45,306 bases of DNA from the NCBI GenBank assembly GCA_019359155.1, contig JAHHHV010000022.1, forward strand, positions 1 through 45,306. Direction: 5' to 3'. Position 1 is the stretch's first letter, and each line of letters opens with the position of its first letter. The stretch is from Pegethrix bostrychoides GSE-TBD4-15B. GTDB lineage: Bacteria > Cyanobacteriota > Cyanobacteriia > Elainellales > Elainellaceae. The notes under the pieces were generated by a model, which had not been told where the DNA came from, ran no database searches, and worked only from the letters and a program-made list of their open reading frames with translations. This document shows positions 4,735 to 15,007 of the stretch, piece after piece. The position numbers and the translations under genes were made by a program.

Positions 4735-4867
4735 AAATTAGATGCATCCAACAGGGAGCGTTGCAGCCAGACTAACCCAGCTTCATAGGGTACGGCAAGC
4801 AGTTCGATCTAATCTCACTCAGCGGGAACGCTATCAGCGTACTGTGAAACAATTCAGGACTGCAATC

Positions 4868-5359
4868 ATGCCATACCAAAACCTCAACACCAGCCTCACC
4901 GATGCCGACCGCCAAGCCATCAAGCAAGCCATCGCCACCATTCAGCAAAAGCTGCCCTTCCTGATTACCCTCAGCGCCGACGAACGCAAGCGGCTCTACA
5001 AAATGGGCGACAAACGCCTTGCCTTCGTCCAAAACAGCCTCAACGCCGCCCAAAGCAACCGCAATATTCTGCCCGCTAGCTTCGACCTCGACAGCTTCAG
5101 CAACGACTACCAGCTCAGCGCCGACCTCAGCGAGCTATTGATGCTGCTCAACCAGCTCACCGAACAAGTAGACGATACCCTGATGGCCGTCAGCAGCGAA
5201 GCCATGAGCAGCAGCCTCACCGTCTATGATTACGTCAAAACTGCCGCCAAAAAGACCCCCGGACTCAAAGCAATCGCCGAGCAGCTCGGCAGCTTGTTTA
5301 AGGCGATCCGAACCAAGCCCGCCAAACCTGCCAGTCCCGTCACCGCACCCGTCAACTAG
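4868..5359 (+). CDS. Conserved-looking small helical protein of unknown function, beside a 21-bp repeat array
   Basis: The 163-residue product starts MPYQNLNTSLTDADRQ. This ATG is preferred over one at 4742 because an AGGA box sits 8 nt upstream and the extra N-terminal 42 residues look like translated intergenic DNA. The protein is predicted almost entirely alpha-helical. It has an IQQKLPFLITLSADERK segment, a KMGDK motif near residue 45, a TEQVDDTLMAVSSEA segment near 105-120, and a basic, Pro/Ala-rich tail. There is no signal peptide, membrane helix or recognised catalytic motif. I recall similar short proteins in cyanobacteria and Bacteroidetes but know no assigned function. The stop codon is 17 nt before a degenerate array of 21-bp units. 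It is divergent from the CHAT gene. Confidence 0.8.
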   Translation: MPYQNLNTSLTDADRQAIKQAIATIQQKLPFLITLSADERKRLYKMGDKRLAFVQNSLNAAQSNRNILPASFDLDSFSNDYQLSADLSELLMLLNQLTEQVDDTLMAVSSEAMSSSLTVYDYVKTAAKKTPGLKAIAEQLGSLFKAIRTKPAKPASPVTAPVN

Positions 5360-5376
5360 GCTGGCGTACTGCCAAA

Positions 5377-5586
5377 CATCGCGCTTGAACCCCGGAGTAT
5401 CGCGCTTGAACCTCCAAGCATCACGCCCGATCCTCTCGACATGGCGCTTGAACCTTTAAGCATCAGCGCCAAAGCTCAAACCATCTCGCCCAATGCTCAG
5501 CGGCTCGTCGTTGAACTCCAGTAAATCCTCAACGTACCGCCAAGATTCAGCGCCGATGCCCAGAGATTCAGCTGGGCTGTTCTGCA
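5377..5586. repeat. Degenerate tandem array, exact 21-bp period, about 10 units (array A)
   Basis: Units begin at 5377, 5398, 5419, 5440, 5461, 5482, 5503, 5524, 5545 and 5566, with no length change between them. The first two and the fourth share CATCGCGCTTGAACC-type sequence (TATC and CATG variants), and later ones drift. By eye, column 3 is T in 10/10 units, column 4 is C in 9/10, column 17 is C in 9/10 and column 11 is G in 8/10, while other columns vary. The array lies between the 163-aa gene (stop at 5359) and the 3' end of the convergent HDAC-like gene (5615). No long open frame with protein-like composition covers it. Unit phase is certain for the first six and weaker for the last four. 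Confidence 0.75.
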
Positions 5587-9793: not shown

Positions 9794-9967
9794 AGCTCTA
9801 ATCTGATGCAACGCTGAAGCTAATTTACCACCCACATCCTATGGTCAGTAAACTAATCGCTGAATCTATGCCTAACGCCATAGGAAGGCGCACCGTGACG
9901 CATGGTAATTGAAATCGGCATTTGGAATACACTGAATGCAGGTAAATCGCAATCAGGAGCCAGTTGG

Positions 9968-10552
9968 ATGACCACCGCCACGCCAAAGCTCAGCTTCGAG
10001 GACTACCTTGCCTACAGCGACGACACTGACACTCGCTACGAACTCGTCGATGGAGAACTCGTCCCCATGAGCTTAGGCACTGGCAAGCACGGCAGCATTA
10101 TCGAATTCTTGTATGACCAATTCCGTGATCAAATTAACCGCCGAGAACTGCCTTGGACTGCCAAACAAGCAGCGGTTGGTATCCGTTCGCCGCGCGGCAG
10201 ACGTTGGGACACCTCTCGTATTCCGGATGTAATGGTGCTGCCGCTGGCGCAGTGGGAGGCGATGGAAAACCGAGAGGCGATTATCAATTTCAACGAGCCG
10301 CCGCCGATTCTGGTAGTGGAAGTGGTGAGTCCTTCGACTAAAACTGACGACTACCGCTCAAAGCGCGGCGAGTACGGGCTGCTAGAGATTCCAGAATATT
10401 GGATTGTCGATCCGCTAACGGCAAAGGTAACGCTGGGCATTCTCGATCACGAATTTTATGACCTGGTGGAATATCAGGCAGATCAGGTGATTCAGTCGCC
10501 AATTTTCCCAGATTTACAGCTCACTGCCGCGCAGGTTTTGGCCGCGAAATAG
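9968..10552 (+). CDS. Uma2 family endonuclease
   Basis: This 194-residue Uma2/DUF820 protein starts at MTTATPKLSFEDYLAY. The start is chosen because an AGGAG box lies 7 nt upstream, while the upstream in-frame extension looks non-coding. Motifs are YELVDGELVPMS, ILVVEVVSPSTKTDDY and IPEYWIVDPLTAKVTL, matching the PD-(D/E)XK-type core. It is 65 bp upstream of a second Uma2 gene on the same strand and the two probably form a small operon. Their sequences differ enough to be old paralogs rather than a fresh duplication. Confidence 0.9.
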   Translation: MTTATPKLSFEDYLAYSDDTDTRYELVDGELVPMSLGTGKHGSIIEFLYDQFRDQINRRELPWTAKQAAVGIRSPRGRRWDTSRIPDVMVLPLAQWEAMENREAIINFNEPPPILVVEVVSPSTKTDDYRSKRGEYGLLEIPEYWIVDPLTAKVTLGILDHEFYDLVEYQADQVIQSPIFPDLQLTAAQVLAAK

Positions 10553-10617
10553 GCAAACCTGTAGATTGCCATCTGCTCAAGATCTGTTTTAAGCGAAATG
10601 TGAATGGGAGGCTTGAG

Positions 10618-11205
10618 ATGACGCTGACGGCCACTAAGATGACATTTGAGGAATTCTTGAACTATGACGATGGCACAGAGAGTTTATATGAACTGGAGAA
10701 TGGGAAACTGATTGCAATGCCTTCTGAGAGTGAAATTAATCGTCGGATTGCGATGTTTTTAGTGGCAACTTTTTTGAAGCTGGGCATCCCGTCTACTCGC
10801 CTGACGCTGAAGACTGAGCTGGCGGTGAGCGGGGCGCGGCTATCGGTGCGTGTTCCTGATCTGGTGGTGCTGTCGGAGGAGTTGGCAGGGGTGCTAGCGG
10901 GGGCGAGTCGCTCGATTGTGCTGCTGGAGATGCCGCCGCCTTTGCTGGTGGTGGAGGTGGTTAGCCCGAATCAGGAGAAGCGTGACTATCGCTATAAGCG
11001 TTCGGAATATGCGGCGCGGGGAATTTTGGAATATTGGATTGTTGATCCGTTGCAGCAGCGGGTGACGCTATTGGAATGGGTGGAAGGGCTGTATGAGGAG
11101 CAGGTGTATAGTGGTGATCAGGTGGTTGTTTCGCCAGTGCTGGCTGCGGCTGCGCTTGCTCAGCAGGTGGAGTTGACGGCGGCTGTGATCTTGCGGGGTG
11201 GTTGA
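10618..11205 (+). CDS. Uma2 family endonuclease
   Basis: This 195-residue Uma2/DUF820 paralog has FEEFLNYDDGTESLYELENG near the N terminus, the LLVVEVVSPNQEKRDYRYK catalytic block and ILEYWIVDPLQQRVTLLEW. A strong GGGAGG box 6 nt before the ATG at 10618 favours that start over an in-frame GTG at 10600. It is the second member of a tandem Uma2 pair. Function is unknown beyond the nuclease fold. Confidence 0.9.
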   Translation: MTLTATKMTFEEFLNYDDGTESLYELENGKLIAMPSESEINRRIAMFLVATFLKLGIPSTRLTLKTELAVSGARLSVRVPDLVVLSEELAGVLAGASRSIVLLEMPPPLLVVEVVSPNQEKRDYRYKRSEYAARGILEYWIVDPLQQRVTLLEWVEGLYEEQVYSGDQVVVSPVLAAAALAQQVELTAAVILRGG

Positions 11206-11769
11206 GCTTTGCAGCTTTGTGGCTCAAGATCGGCGTGACGCACAGTTGACGATGGACTGAGCAGCTTCGAGTTAAGCCAGCGGATGATCTAAATGGTACG
11301 GCAAGAGACATTGCTGAATCAAACTGTGATTTACCCCCTGGACTCCAATTCATAGCCTTACGGATCGCAAAGCAAGAAGGATTTGGGGGATGCGGGAACT
11401 AGCACCAGCGGCAACAGGATATGGACGATAGCCGATCATCAATTGCTAAACAGATCAACTTGCAATTCAAATCCGGGCAGCAGGAATTCACCTAGCTGAT
11501 TTTTTTGATCGCAGGTTTGAATTTTGGGCTTGTGTAAGCCAGACTTTTGCTCTATGCTTTTCAGACTGGCATCAAAACCAGTGAAACCTGGACTTGAGGC
11601 GAGGTCGCTGACTAGAAGTGCTTGGTACCACAACTAGCCAGCTAACCCTAACTCTGTGAGTTGGTCACAGGGCGGGGCTGTGCTATTTTTGCACACCTTG
11701 TTCATACGTGGTTGGGCTATCGCCGCTGCCTTGAGTCCTCTAACCCTAGTCAAAATTGAGGCCAAATCT
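11206..11769. other. Intergenic stretch with only a Uma2 relic
   Basis: Apart from the 57-bp Uma2-like tail at 11439-11495 (listed separately), no gene, clear hairpin or repeat is visible. Short open frames here lack a ribosome-binding site and have compositions typical of shadow or random translation. Confidence 0.5.
11439..11495 (-). pseudogene. C-terminal relic of a Uma2 gene
   Basis: The minus-strand frame ends with LGEFLLPGFELQVDLFSN and a stop codon. This closely matches the C terminus of the intact Uma2 at 14426-15007 (LSGEAVLPGFELQMERFG). Upstream of this piece the frame no longer resembles Uma2. The likely reading is the decayed tail of a further Uma2 copy. The match is short, so the call is moderate. 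Confidence 0.5.
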
Positions 11770-11970
11770 ATGTCTACAGAGTTCAACGAACTGCTGCAAT
11801 GTTCGGGTGGCGATAGTTTGCAAATCTGGATTGTGGGCAGCCGCGAGCGGGTGATGCATACGATCAACGAGTTTCAGGTGAAGCGTGTGGTGAGTGATCG
11901 CAGCGAGTTTAGCCCGCTGATTCCGGCTCCGCTGGCTCCGGGTAAGTATATGACGCTGCTGGTGCGGTAG
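11770..11970 (+). CDS. Small protein of unknown function
   Basis: This 66-residue product starts MSTEFNELLQCSGGDSLQ and contains WIVGSRERVMHTINEFQVK, ending in PLAPGKYMTLLVR. The ATG at 11770 is chosen because a GAGG box lies about 9 nt upstream; an upstream ATG at 11656 would add residues without protein character. The regular sequence and ribosome-binding site argue for a real small gene. It has no membrane segment, signal or recognised motif. Neighbours are Uma2 genes and an antitoxin-like gene, and no functional inference can be made from them. Confidence 0.65.
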   Translation: MSTEFNELLQCSGGDSLQIWIVGSRERVMHTINEFQVKRVVSDRSEFSPLIPAPLAPGKYMTLLVR

Positions 11971-12091
11971 GCTGCGGCTGCGCTCAGCTCTCGTTGACGG
12001 GTTTGGGGGCTGAGCATTGCTGAGGCTTGTGGTGTTTCACTATTATTTCAATTAGCTAAAATTGGATTGTTGCAAGTTATCTGGATGCCTC

Positions 12092-12355
12092 ATGAATCTG
12101 GCAGAGCAGGAGCTACTCGAAAAATGGCGCTATCTCCCACCTGAACAACAGCAAGAGATTCTAGATTTTGCTGAGTTTCTGTTGCAAAAAATGCGGCGGC
12201 ATTCTGGCGAGGCAGTTGTGCAGCAGCTGTTGCGGCCAGAACAGCAGAATAATGGCTCGAAACTATTGGGAGAACGCCTTCGAGAGCTTCGTGAACAGAT
12301 TGTGGCTTCTGGAGAACGGCTGCTGACGGCTGAGGAAATTGAGCGATTTTATTAG
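12092..12355 (+). CDS. DUF2281/VapB-like antitoxin-type protein, without an adjacent toxin
   Basis: The 87-residue product shows the DUF2281 signature WRYLPPEQQQEILDFAEFLLQK at its N terminus, followed by a polar, disorder-like stretch and an LLTAEEIERFY tail. In many cyanobacteria such proteins precede a PIN-domain toxin. Here the next gene is convergent and overlaps the last 4 bp, so no toxin follows. It could be an orphan antitoxin or a remnant of a pair. The ATG at 12092 is preferred over an upstream one at 12062, which adds Cys-rich, unlikely residues. Confidence 0.75.
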   Translation: MNLAEQELLEKWRYLPPEQQQEILDFAEFLLQKMRRHSGEAVVQQLLRPEQQNNGSKLLGERLRELREQIVASGERLLTAEEIERFY

Positions 12356-12723
12356 CCCGCGATGGCGACTCTTTGACGGGTGGGGCGTTTGCGATCTGAT
12401 TTCTTCTTCAGACCAATCGACTGGGCTTCGTCGCTATCTACGCCGTACTGTCCGCGCACGACTTCTTTCATGGCCAGCACGCTGTTGTGAAATTCCCATT
12501 CGGCCAAACGCGCAGCGTCGGCAGCAGCGCGATAAAGCGCCAGTTTTTCGGTCTCGGCTTGCTGAAATGCCAGCATGGCCTGATAGGCTTTTTGCAGGGC
12601 TTCAGGGGTGGCGGCTTGGCGCTTAGTGCTGTATCCCTGGATGGTGTTGAAGCCGTTGAGCGAGTCGATATCTTGATTCAGCAACTGGGCGGCGAGGCGG
12701 CGGCTGGTGTTTTGGGGTGCCAT
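12352..12723 (-). CDS. Small helical protein with basic C-terminal tail, unknown function, preceded by a 21-bp repeat array
   Basis: The 123-residue product starts MAPQNTSRRLAAQLL. An AGGGA box lies about 8 nt before this ATG. A longer frame runs on upstream into the repeat array but has no good start and stops there. The N-terminal half is a polar LNQDIDSLNGFNTIQGYS segment. A long Ala/Gln-rich helix (about 45-85) follows, then WEFHNSVLAMKEVVRGQYG, DSDEAQSIG and a strongly basic LKKKSDRKRPTRQR tail. The tail suggests nucleic-acid contact; this is inference. I recall similar short proteins in cyanobacteria and Bacteroidetes with the IGLKKKS...KRP ending but no described role. Eighty bases upstream lies a seven-unit 21-bp array, so the array may be in its 5' leader or promoter. 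Confidence 0.8.
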   Translation of the reverse strand: MAPQNTSRRLAAQLLNQDIDSLNGFNTIQGYSTKRQAATPEALQKAYQAMLAFQQAETEKLALYRAAADAARLAEWEFHNSVLAMKEVVRGQYGVDSDEAQSIGLKKKSDRKRPTRQRVAIAG

Positions 12724-12803
12724 GGGTTTGTCCCTGTGGTAAACGATGCATTTAGTCTGCCCATTAGCTTCTTGCAATAAACCAAAGCAATGGTGAGCCG
12801 CAA

Positions 12804-12950
12804 CAATGCCTTTGCGGGGCGGGACAATACCTTTGTAACGGGTCGCAATTTGAGGGTGAGTGGCCACAATGCTAAAGAGGAAGGGCGCAATGGCATTGTC
12901 AGGCGTGACAATTTAAAGGGGAGCGGTGACAATTGAGTGGCGAGAGAAGA
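12804..12950. repeat. Degenerate tandem array, exact 21-bp period, 7 units with variable cores (array B)
   Basis: Units start at 12804, 12825, 12846, 12867, 12888, 12909 and 12930, each exactly 21 bp. Columns 1-4 are CAAT in 7/7 units, column 11 is G in 7/7, column 18 is G in 6/7, and the 3' edge tends to GGTGA or GGCGA. Columns 5-10 and 12-16 vary strongly. A further CAAT at 12788 is 16 bp away and out of phase. The array sits upstream of the minus-strand 123-aa gene and ends exactly where a 78-bp palindromic element begins (12951). Stops interrupt the frames through the array, so it is unlikely to be coding over its whole length. Confidence 0.85.
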
Positions 12951-13028
12951 GATCCCCCAACCCCCTTAAAAAGGGGGCTTCGGAGCATTTCGGTTCGGTT
13001 CCCCCTTTTTAAGGGGGCTAGGGGGATC
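12951..13028. repeat. 78-bp palindromic intergenic element (GATCCCCC-type)
   Basis: The ends are perfect inverted GATCCCCC...GGGGGATC, and the arms of about 27 bp match almost throughout (C-runs, TTAAAAA, G-runs) around a ~20-bp loop. Palindromes of this type are scattered through many cyanobacterial genomes and behave like MITE or REP elements. Folded as RNA it would form a very stable hairpin and could also act as a terminator. Its left border abuts array B with no spacer. Confidence 0.85.
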
Positions 13029-13154
13029 GGCTTTGAGCGTCTCAGTTCAACCGAAATTTATCTCTGCGTTTAGCAACGCTGAGTATCAAGTCCCGACAGC
13101 TTCTCTGCGGCTAACTTCTAAGTCAAAGGCTGGCTCAGGTCGATTCTCATGAGA

Positions 13155-14168
13155 CTATTGCTCAAAGAGAAACCTGAGCCGAGCGTCTTGCGGATGAATA
13201 TTCCAAGCTTGCAGTGTTGGTCTAGGGTCGCCACCGTTACGGCCTAGACGATTCAGCTTCTGCTGATGGCAGTCAAGGAAGTAAGCATCAGAGTAATAGG
13301 TTTCAGAGACTTGAGGGATACACAATAAAATATCATCGTTGATGCGGATAAGCAGTGGCTCTCGATAATCGCGGGCAAGTTGCGGAATTGCGTCTTCATC
13401 TTCCATCCATTGCCCGAAAGCAGAACGTGGAGAAACCTTAACATGGCAGTCTGGTTTCTCTGCCAGCCGCAGTGCTAGGGTTACTTTGTCTGCTAGCTCA
13501 ACTGTTGTAGAAACCCAAGAGCCAGAGCTGAGTAGAGAACTCACTTGCCACCGCATATTCAGCGTTTTATCGCTGCAACCAGACAGTCCTAGACAGACTG
13601 TCTGGGATGGCTTCTGGTGTTCCGGTCTTGTTCCATCATCTGGCAGATAGCTAGTTGCAGCATAAGCATCCTCGAATGAGAGCCGATTGACTGCACTCAG
13701 CAAGCAGGCACTATGAAAGAGACTAGAGCTGTATAGCTGTTCAAAAGACTTGGGCGGGTTCTCGCCATACAGCTCTGGCATAGGACGGCAGTAACCATAA
13801 ACTCGGTCGTCTTCAGCCAGAGCCTCAATCAATCTCAGCGTCTCATATAGGCAGGTAATTGACCCACCGCTGTTGAAGTTGTCGGTAGCAGGATGATAGC
13901 CATAACTCCAGGGATGAGCTTGTCTTGGCTTCAGGAATATCCAATCTACGTCCAAAGGGTGAGCTGGATCTGGCACTATTGCAAATAGCCAGTCTGGAAG
14001 ATGGCCTCGATTAATCGCCTCGTGGTAACCGGTATCAAAGAACATATCACTCTGCATGACCGGATACACCAGCGCAATTTTATTCCAGTAGATTTTCACA
14101 AAGTTAGTCAGAAATGGCTCTTGAATGTAGTTCAGCTTGGCATCATCAAGAATCAACAGGTTGTGCAT
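13155..14168 (-). CDS. Hypothetical protein, 337 residues
   Basis: I do not recognise this protein. It is a long, well-formed frame rich in aromatic residues and Trp/Tyr/Pro motifs (FLKPRQAHPWSYGYHPATDNF near residue 80, YGYCRPMPELYGE near 125). It contains a Ser-rich central part (QVSSLLSSGSWVS) and an acidic FGQWMEDEDAIPQLARDYREP segment. There is no signal peptide, membrane helix or P-loop. It stands alone downstream of an intergenic palindrome, with a gap of about 250 bp to the next gene. It could be an enzyme or a cargo-type protein of accessory DNA. Confidence 0.7.
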   Translation of the reverse strand: MHNLLILDDAKLNYIQEPFLTNFVKIYWNKIALVYPVMQSDMFFDTGYHEAINRGHLPDWLFAIVPDPAHPLDVDWIFLKPRQAHPWSYGYHPATDNFNSGGSITCLYETLRLIEALAEDDRVYGYCRPMPELYGENPPKSFEQLYSSSLFHSACLLSAVNRLSFEDAYAATSYLPDDGTRPEHQKPSQTVCLGLSGCSDKTLNMRWQVSSLLSSGSWVSTTVELADKVTLALRLAEKPDCHVKVSPRSAFGQWMEDEDAIPQLARDYREPLLIRINDDILLCIPQVSETYYSDAYFLDCHQQKLNRLGRNGGDPRPTLQAWNIHPQDARLRFLFEQ

Positions 14169-14425: not shown

Positions 14426-15007
14426 TTAGGGAGCATCCCCAAACCGCTCCATCTGCAACTCAAATCCAGGCAGGACAGCCTCGCCCGAAAGCTTCATCGG
14501 CAAAGCTTCTATCGCTTTCACCTGCCCAGTTCGATAGATTTCCACCTGCTGATCTTGCGGGTTAATCAGCCATCCTAGCTTTAGTCCACAGTCTATATAC
14601 TCCTGCATCTTTTCTTGCAGCGGCTTCAGACGGTCACTACGAGACCGCAGCTCAATCACAAAATCAGGGCAGATTGGCGGAAACCCTTGCCGTTCTTCCA
14701 GGCTCAGACTCTGCCAGCGCTCAAGCTGCACCCAAGCCACATCCGGCGAGCGGTCTCCCCCTCCCGGCAGGCTGAACACCGTCTGCGAGCTAAACACAAT
14801 CCCTAAATTCGTTTGGCGATTCCAAATGCTGACATCAACAATTAGATTCGCCTCACGCCTACCGCCTTCTCCACCCATCGGGGTCATGATGATTAAATCT
14901 CCATGTGGGCCACGCTCCATCGGCAGGTCTGGATTGGCCAGACAGAGCTGATAAAACTGGGTTCGCGTCAACCTGGTAATTGGCTCTAGATTGAGGATTG
15001 TTGTCAT
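14426..15007 (-). CDS. Uma2 family endonuclease
   Basis: This 193-residue Uma2 protein is of the LTRTQFYQLCLANPDLPMER subgroup, distinct from the other copies in the window. The motifs SPDVAWVQLERWQSL and PPICPDFVIELRSRSDRLKPLQEKMQEY carry the catalytic-type Asp and Glu, and the C terminus VLPGFELQMERFG matches the relic at 11439. It is divergent from metH with about 200 bp between them. Confidence 0.92.
   Translation of the reverse strand: MTTILNLEPITRLTRTQFYQLCLANPDLPMERGPHGDLIIMTPMGGEGGRREANLIVDVSIWNRQTNLGIVFSSQTVFSLPGGGDRSPDVAWVQLERWQSLSLEERQGFPPICPDFVIELRSRSDRLKPLQEKMQEYIDCGLKLGWLINPQDQQVEIYRTGQVKAIEALPMKLSGEAVLPGFELQMERFGDAP

Follow-up and report, generated by a model that had tools for sequence, protein, structure and literature searches.

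A gene for a small basic protein and the 20–21-bp-period array beside its start: a putative module recurring across filamentous cyanobacteria

The window analysed here is a 45,306-nt stretch of the Pegethrix bostrychoides GSE-TBD4-15B genome (contig JAHHHV010000022.1), in which a tandem array of short units lies upstream of the gene for a small basic protein (Table 1). This arrangement raises the question of whether array and gene belong together and what the protein might do with units that keep their length while their sequence varies. The initial annotation had described seven 21-bp units following one another without a change of length. This description holds, with units of constant length starting at 12804, 12825, 12846, 12867, 12888, 12909 and 12930. 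Columns 1–4 (CAAT) and column 11 (G), taken as invariant by eye, were found by column counts to be identical in all seven units, column 18 is G in six of them, and columns 5–10 and 12–16 are variable; variation across the 21 columns is thus uneven, where an even spread in related strains had been named as speaking against the reading. The lag-21 self-identity of the array is 0.524 (126 positions), a value reached by none of 5000 first-order Markov resamples of positions 12731–12960 in which lags 12–39 were searched (maximum 0.460). Since Tandem Repeats Finder does not list the array at a score of 30, it must be regarded as weak and degenerate. The start of the gene lies 80 bp from the first in-phase unit, the distance originally given, and the two out-of-phase CAAT copies sit 29 and 16 bp ahead of that unit (ATTG at offsets 169 and 182).

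Table 1. Positions and strands of the features discussed, numbered from the first letter of the window.
Feature	Position	Strand	Remarks
Gene of the 123-aa small basic protein	12352..12723	-	Stop codon included; long helix 40–93, KKKSDRKRPTRQR tail
Leader between array and start codon	12724..12774	-	Carries TAATGGGCAGACTAAATG, resembling the AATGGGCACATTAAAT element of relatives
Two extra CAAT copies	12775..12791 (12775–12778, 12788–12791)	.	Out of phase; possibly unit remnants
21-bp-period array	12804..12950	.	Seven units CAAT-N6-G-N10; same position as the arrays of 63/79 named relatives
48-aa ORF across the array	12790..12936	+	Rival coding reading, judged spurious; ATG start
MITE-like inverted repeat	12951..13028	.	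Arms of 27 nt, 81% complementary; abuts the far end of the array; a neighbour, outside the module
Second small-protein gene, 205 aa, KMGDK motif	4742..5359	+	Of the array-linked kind; unrelated to the 123-aa protein
21-bp array at the 3' end of the 205-aa gene	5338..5470	.	Unit CCAAACATCGCGCTTGAACCT; starts at the 3' end of the gene

Several other elements surround the array, and neither the ORF across it nor the adjoining inverted repeat is mentioned in the initial annotation. The arms of the inverted repeat read GATCCCCC...GGGGGATC, and similar sequences lie upstream of homologs at loci L022, L024 and L027. Three weak Rfam matches within 12300–13200 fall on this repeat (E 0.15 to 0.72, far below the gathering score). 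A 97-aa ORF (12062–12355, plus strand), with a DUF2281 match above and a VapB antitoxin match below the cutoff, shares 4 bp with the 3' end of the 123-aa gene, and genes of the Uma2 family (PF05685) lie within 5 kb of the array at 9902–10552, 10600–11205 and 14426–15007. A small ORF ending in ...PAPxAxGKYMTxLxR recurs beside copies of the 123-aa gene in the own genome (window 11656–11970, plus strand; L129 5391–5645, minus strand; start of L130), and is also found upstream of the L009 array and downstream of the L030 gene.

The proposed association between array and gene was borne out among homologs. Close homologs of the 123-aa protein occur in 18 of 60 related genomes and, fragments included, in 66 of 291 genomes of the class. 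A scan of a one-genome-per-species collection confirmed 211 relatives, the best 80 of which constitute the named loci; their record titles show cyanobacteria, for the most part filamentous genera such as Nostoc, Calothrix, Tolypothrix, Fischerella, Phormidesmis, Elainella and Nodosilinea. When the best lag within 600 bp upstream was taken at a self-identity threshold of 0.5, a lag of 20 or 21 was obtained in 62 of the 80 named loci (59 at 21 and 3 at 20) and two more passed at lags 14 and 27, as against 3 of 80 in the downstream control, at lags 14, 18 and 33. With arrays of 7- and 14-bp period excluded, a 20/21-bp array stands upstream in 63 of 79 named loci, which are related species rather than independent events. 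The corresponding downstream count is 0 of 80, and other genes in the same loci have such an array in 5 of 74 cases. This is the enrichment near homologs that the initial annotation had set as its test. At about eight Nostoc loci, gene and array are kept in place beside the same gene block; between these orthologs, copy number and unit sequence differ and the frame is kept. Among plasmid-borne homologs, the Nostoc homolog L112 has an array (0.95), as does L302 of Kovacikia (0.70), whereas L303, also from a Kovacikia plasmid, has none.

The linkage extends beyond close relatives. In the divergent superfamily, a lag-21 array was found upstream in 22 of 30 fetched loci and downstream in 2 of 30, the sample being 30 of 82 rows. 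Of these loci, L181 and L182 encode proteins already included in the search profile, and L191 and L206 were not new to the analysis. The 205-aa protein of the window has homologs in 24 of 60 related genomes, and in this second family (30 of 71 rows sampled) the array lies on the other side, downstream in 24 of 30 fetched loci and upstream in 2 of 28. The array at the 3' end of the window copy, judging by its position presumably array A of the initial annotation, has a lag-21 self-identity of 0.67 over 63 positions and 0.607 over 84. A second-family homolog on a gammaproteobacterial plasmid (L301) was not counted, its sole lag-21 signal (0.524) beginning inside the next gene.

In the closed genome G221, the close-family profile finds nothing; instead, 11 scored paralogs of the divergent kind are present, marked by a YGKxSxEYxxAGG-like motif, two weak matches (E 0.13 and 0.29) being left out of the gene count. 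An upstream array was found for all 11; the best lag is 21 in ten and 18 in L152, where a 63-bp (3 × 21) repeat makes up the array. Within 1.2 Mb of this genome, an array accompanies all seven family genes on the side where it is expected, compared with 20 of 857 other genes upstream and 29 of 857 downstream. This background rises to 78 and 117 of 858, respectively, when 7-bp arrays are left in; heptamer repeats dominate this segment and need to be excluded from any lag-21 count. Such heptamers (STRR) are familiar in cyanobacteria and, like the present arrays, are short, tandem and intergenic. Their period is 7 rather than 21, and 63 of the 79 named loci retain their array after lags 7 and 14 are excluded; both kinds occur in the same genomes. 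In the segment concerned (C1:600001–1800000, L241–L300), 104 intergenic arrays of period 7 were counted against 17 of period 21, and 8 further period-21 arrays lie inside called ORFs. The arrays of the G221 paralogs are mutually unrelated, with 0 of 55 pairs matching at p < 0.01 and a mean identity of 10.27 of 21 positions against 9.90 after shuffling. Array and gene are thus linked, on a fixed side (5' in this superfamily, 3' in the second family), at a near-constant period of two helical turns and with unrelated units at different paralogs.

An ancestral array might also persist beside the gene by slippage and unequal exchange, without function, its period inherited while its sequence drifts. 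Within an array the units have become alike, whereas different loci and strains, orthologs included, have different units. The more identical two proteins are, the more similar their units (r = 0.594, p = 0.0005, 66 loci), a correlation confounded by phylogeny for which shared descent alone could suffice. These observations and the decayed look of the arrays in the own genome agree with such passive hitchhiking. However, the same period recurs in two unrelated protein families, 5' of one and 3' of the other, and in 11 paralogs with unrelated units, ten of them at a best lag of 21 and one with its 63-bp repeat. Retention in 63 of 79 named loci and the joint change of dyad arms described below also count against mere persistence, which we consider distinctly unlikely. 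The same observations bear on the selection first proposed for the array in the window: spacing and edge are indeed kept while the sequence varies, whereas the homogenisation of units within relatives' arrays does not favour the idea that diversity inside the units is advantageous.

Spacing in the arrays is nearly constant. Among 252 gaps between the cores of relatives' units, 228 measure 21 bp, 22 measure 20 bp, one 22 bp and one 16 bp, with none of 18 or 24 bp, which fits the two-turn helical period suggested at the outset. The arrays of L013 and L024 run at 20 bp, and those of L009 and L078 mix 20 and 21, so that a reading frame is lost there from unit to unit. This bears on the 48-aa ORF across the array in the window. 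Seven codons span 21 bp, the ORF is open and begins with ATG, every unit of the window measures 21 bp, and the N-x-x-V-x-G-like heptapeptides recall an ice-binding beta roll, with a weak match to Pfam LbR_Ice_bind (PF21300; E 0.0025) that reaches 18.3 bits against a curated cutoff of 30. The 20-bp and mixed arrays would shift the frame of such a protein, and orientation relative to the gene, judged by the spacer, also flips between loci (11 arrays one way and 6 the opposite way, of 38). For the relatives, heptad coding was rejected on these two features. For the array in the window, where all units measure 21 bp and the ORF is open, the non-coding assignment is by analogy, and coding is hardly credible.

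In the close subfamily, the unit consists of a 13-bp dyad and an 8-bp spacer, the dyad being ACAAT-N3-ATTGT or GCATT-N3-AATGC (RCAWW-N3-WWTGY). The arms switch together: the inner pairs are complementary in 306 of 318 units, against 155 expected. Since units were picked by the pattern CAWW...WWTG, those bases are fixed by construction in the outer-base counts and the column information, while the inner choice of AT or TT is free; outer A..C combinations occur in 62 of the 318 units. Without any motif filter, the consensus dyad score of 79 close-subfamily arrays is 4.90 against 4.00 after shuffling, and that of 25 second-family arrays is 4.28 against 3.84. Arrays of divergent members show no excess (4.14 against 3.99, 35 arrays). 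A palindrome as a general rule was rejected on this contrast, and a single rule of symmetric dimers cannot cover all members.

Arms that change together, in an array upstream of a start codon, would also be expected if the units acted as RNA, as a repeated 5' leader or a small RNA, with the basic tail binding the hairpins; transcription into small RNAs is discussed for repeats of this size by Subirana and Messeguer (2021, PMC8161180). Yet stems of five pairs closed by 3-nt loops would be weak, judging by their size, and the outer A..C combinations count against an RNA role. The lack of dyad excess in divergent arrays, the varying spacer orientation and the position of the second family's array 3' of its gene also speak against it, and eight loci gave nothing in Rfam at the gathering score. 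We therefore judge an RNA role to be very improbable. The joint change of the arms fits recognition of the close-subfamily unit by a symmetric dimer.

Seen against this unit, the array in the window takes on a different appearance. On the strand of the 123-aa gene, it is a degenerate form of the relatives' ACAAT-N3-ATTGT-N8: all seven phased units have the ATTG arm, whereas the partner arm is complete in one (ACAATGCCATTGC) and partial in two (ACAAA and GCAAA). What had been described as a fixed edge around a variable core looks like a decayed ACAAT-N3-ATTGT dyad. AATGGGYACATTA is found at most 100 nt from the start in 34 of 105 relatives and a looser form in 67 of 105; the copy in the window fits neither pattern.

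Among 835,623 bases sampled in the own genome, 13 lag-21 arrays were found, and each of the five intact family genes is accompanied by an array on the side predicted for its family (two on contig C22 and one each on C63, C44 and C85). A sixth family gene, on C45, is broken, and its sole array match lies inside the gene. No two arrays in this sample (836 kb) agree at 15 of 21 positions, and none of its stray arrays, those away from a family gene, matches a gene-linked one. A degenerate unit copy stands beside a gene remnant, and the own-genome arrays look decayed. Decayed copies of the 123-aa gene were noted at L129 (C75:115500–121982) and L130 (C92); two share their downstream flank, and one own-genome copy retains array and leader after losing most of the gene. 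Given the decay of the array in the window and the lack of stray copies in the sampled part, the array may here be a relic or a minimal operator.

In G221, the 19 stray arrays were compared with the consensus units of 11 superfamily arrays and one second-family array. Eight match one gene-linked consensus at p < 0.01, agreeing with it at 17 to 21 of 21 positions where the 99th percentile of the null is 14. With blastn (E ≤ 1e-4), 12 of the 19 match, and six of the remaining seven pair with one another. The count depends on how far upstream the gene-linked arrays are sought, 5 of 19 matching at p < 0.01 with a reach of 450 bp and 8 of 19 with 700 bp, because the arrays of L163 and L167 lie further out. 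In this one closed genome, stray arrays thus share the unit of one particular gene-linked array.

Counts of the two dyad types point partly in the same direction in other genomes. G063, of the Nostocales, has two family genes with two unit types, both of which are also found elsewhere in the genome. In five genomes with a single family gene each, GCATT-like and ACAAT-like matches are of the gene's own type only: 30 and 0 in G060, 0 and 90 in G066, 17 and 0 in G069, 13 and 0 in G071, and 11 and 0 in G072, counts that include the gene's own array and whose places are known in part. The matches of G070 (0 and 10) differ in type from its gene-linked array, and G061 (12 and 7) and G062 (158 and 0) have family genes without a clear array. 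The reversed-pattern control gave 0 in one genome set and, elsewhere, 14 in G060 and 1 and 4 in two genomes. Among the 291 genomes, 18 have at least two pattern matches, the seven of G303 being copies of a single identical sequence; five of the 18 lack a close homolog, and all five have distant members. An exclusive link between the array and the close gene family was rejected on this count and on the many Nostocales arrays away from the gene.

The stray arrays adjoin unrelated genes, and their origin deserves separate consideration. In REP/RAYT systems, a gene lies beside palindromic repeats and copies of the same repeat are dispersed through the genome. In Nostocales genomes and G221, the present arrays resemble them in pairing a gene with a repeat that has dispersed copies; in the own genome, there is a degenerate copy beside a gene remnant and no match within 836 kb. 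In contrast to the single or paired palindromes and the Y1 transposase of REP/RAYT, the repeats here are tandem 21-bp arrays, and no transposase domain was found in Pfam, NCBIfam or PHROGs. A selfish pair of this sort, in which the protein, alone or with a host enzyme, copies the array and the stray arrays are non-autonomous, would need no chromosomal function. The sharing of one gene-linked unit among stray arrays would follow from it, as would the copy of the cognate L164 leader carried by stray array 1176491 (84% over 135 bp), the end motif common to several stray arrays of G063 and G067, and the gene copies at different places, including the decayed ones of the own genome. From the leader copy, the common end motif and the decayed gene copies, we conclude that duplication or mobility plays a part in the stray arrays. 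A mobile element, however, needs no strict 20–21-bp spacing, and searches of Pfam, NCBIfam, PHROGs and PADLOC with the 123-aa protein brought up no domain of a transposase, nuclease or integrase. In addition, the 900 bp around each of 16 stray arrays of G221 contain no gene remnant by tblastn (E ≤ 0.01), which recovered a control locus, and the Nostoc loci mentioned above keep gene and array in place. As a full explanation, a selfish pair is unlikely. The end motif, AATTTGCTACGAATTAATGAAATGCTGTAC with variants, lies at the right edges of stray arrays L138, L140, L142 and L145 and also at L133, L134 and L141 (G063 and G067); weaker copies of its type occur away from such arrays in G221.

Neither Pfam nor NCBIfam gives a family above its cutoff for the 123-aa protein, which ends in KKKSDRKRPTRQRVAIAG, and PHROGs gives no match at all. 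An AlphaFold2 model built from 37 rows (mean pLDDT 88.8, pTM 0.57) supersedes a single-sequence model with a pTM of 0.37. It predicts a short helix at 12–25, a long one at 40–93 and small ones at 98–102 and 108–111, followed by a basic tail of low confidence; from this, the protein probably dimerises as a coiled coil and bears a basic tail. None of the recognised DNA-binding folds is apparent in the model, and a PDB search with it returned nothing at E ≤ 0.001. The best match (VIA Z 3.8 over 53 residues), with only two chains aligned, is little informative for the long helix, and the fold may be a known one. Three other assignments were rejected. A role as a defence system was suggested by a PADLOC match to PDC-M32B in just one of 19 family members (E 0.0094). 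For a phage origin, no phage match was obtained at E ≤ 0.01, and none of 27 pattern matches in viral contigs was confirmed. As to a partner among neighbouring genes, 15 of 107 loci is the most that any neighbour family reaches, even with orthologous blocks counted.

Comparison with known repeat systems places these arrays more precisely. Plasmid iterons and the ParB-parS and ParR-parC centromere arrays consist of sites repeated in tandem at intervals of about two turns of the helix, next to the gene that encodes their binding protein. Unlike these, the present arrays have no constant neighbour gene, many copies are chromosomal, and several unrelated unit classes coexist in a genome; for the ATPase or actin-like gene that partition systems have beside the array, the general neighbour count gives no family in more than 15 of 107 loci. 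The unique spacers between repeats that characterise CRISPR arrays are absent, relatives' units running head to tail with lag-21 identities of up to 1.0.

A closer likeness is found in the constant-size repeats of 20–21 nt and variable sequence that Subirana and Messeguer (2021, PMC8161180) reported from many bacteria, including Cyanobacteria. In the passages of that article used here, such repeats form several families per genome, are generally non-coding and mostly keep a short motif; their role is recorded as enigmatic, and their fixed size is explained by a proposed protein that needs a constant repeat size and polymerises on DNA, small RNAs being the other suggestion. The arrays described here share the constant 20–21-nt period (lag 21 in the window, 228 gaps of 21 and 22 of 20 in relatives), unrelated sequences and several families per genome, as shown by the 11 unrelated gene-linked arrays of G221 and by five own-genome arrays that do not match one another at 15 of 21 positions. 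A motif is kept in every unit of the window (CAAT and G11, 7 of 7), and the 20-bp and mixed arrays, together with both orientations, make the relatives' arrays non-coding. They fit this known, unexplained kind. In contrast to those passages, in which no associated gene is named, two small-protein families are associated with the arrays here, each on a fixed side, with cognate stray arrays in one genome. Narrow search terms in the open-licence literature found no gene family linked to 20–21-nt repeats.

Taken together, gene and array may form one module that recurs across filamentous cyanobacteria and whose protein would recognise its own helically phased unit, an explanation that we regard as having an even chance of being right. 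The module would comprise a short gene, whose product is helical and carries a basic tail at its C-terminus, together with an array of 20–21-bp units beside the start of that gene. Each protein, as a dimer or oligomer, would recognise its own unit, successive units being bound on one face of the helix; in the close subfamily, a symmetric dimer would recognise the dyad. The array at the protein's own gene would be a putative autoregulatory (feedback) or nucleation site, and the stray arrays putative further binding sites where the protein bends, anchors or silences the chromosome. Oligomerisation and any effect on transcription or chromosome shape are, like the binding itself, putative. Against this explanation stand the model without a recognised DNA-binding fold, the arrays in genomes that lack a close homolog, the type mismatch in G070, the 16 of 79 named and 8 of 30 divergent loci without an array at the threshold, and the own genome with no matching stray array.

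A broader proposal is a system for addressing the chromosome, made up of numerous paralogs per genome. Each of these small coiled-coil proteins would polymerise, helically phased, along the 20–21-bp satellite arrays of one class, and the array beside its gene would serve for nucleation or feedback. This we put forward tentatively, as possible though doubtful. If it were true, the 20–21-nt repeats of many other bacteria would have comparable dedicated proteins. The linkage of two small-protein families to constant-size arrays in cyanobacteria gives repeats of enigmatic role a testable partner. If each protein binds its own unit, these families would represent a multi-paralog system of DNA recognition whose specificities could be read from the arrays.
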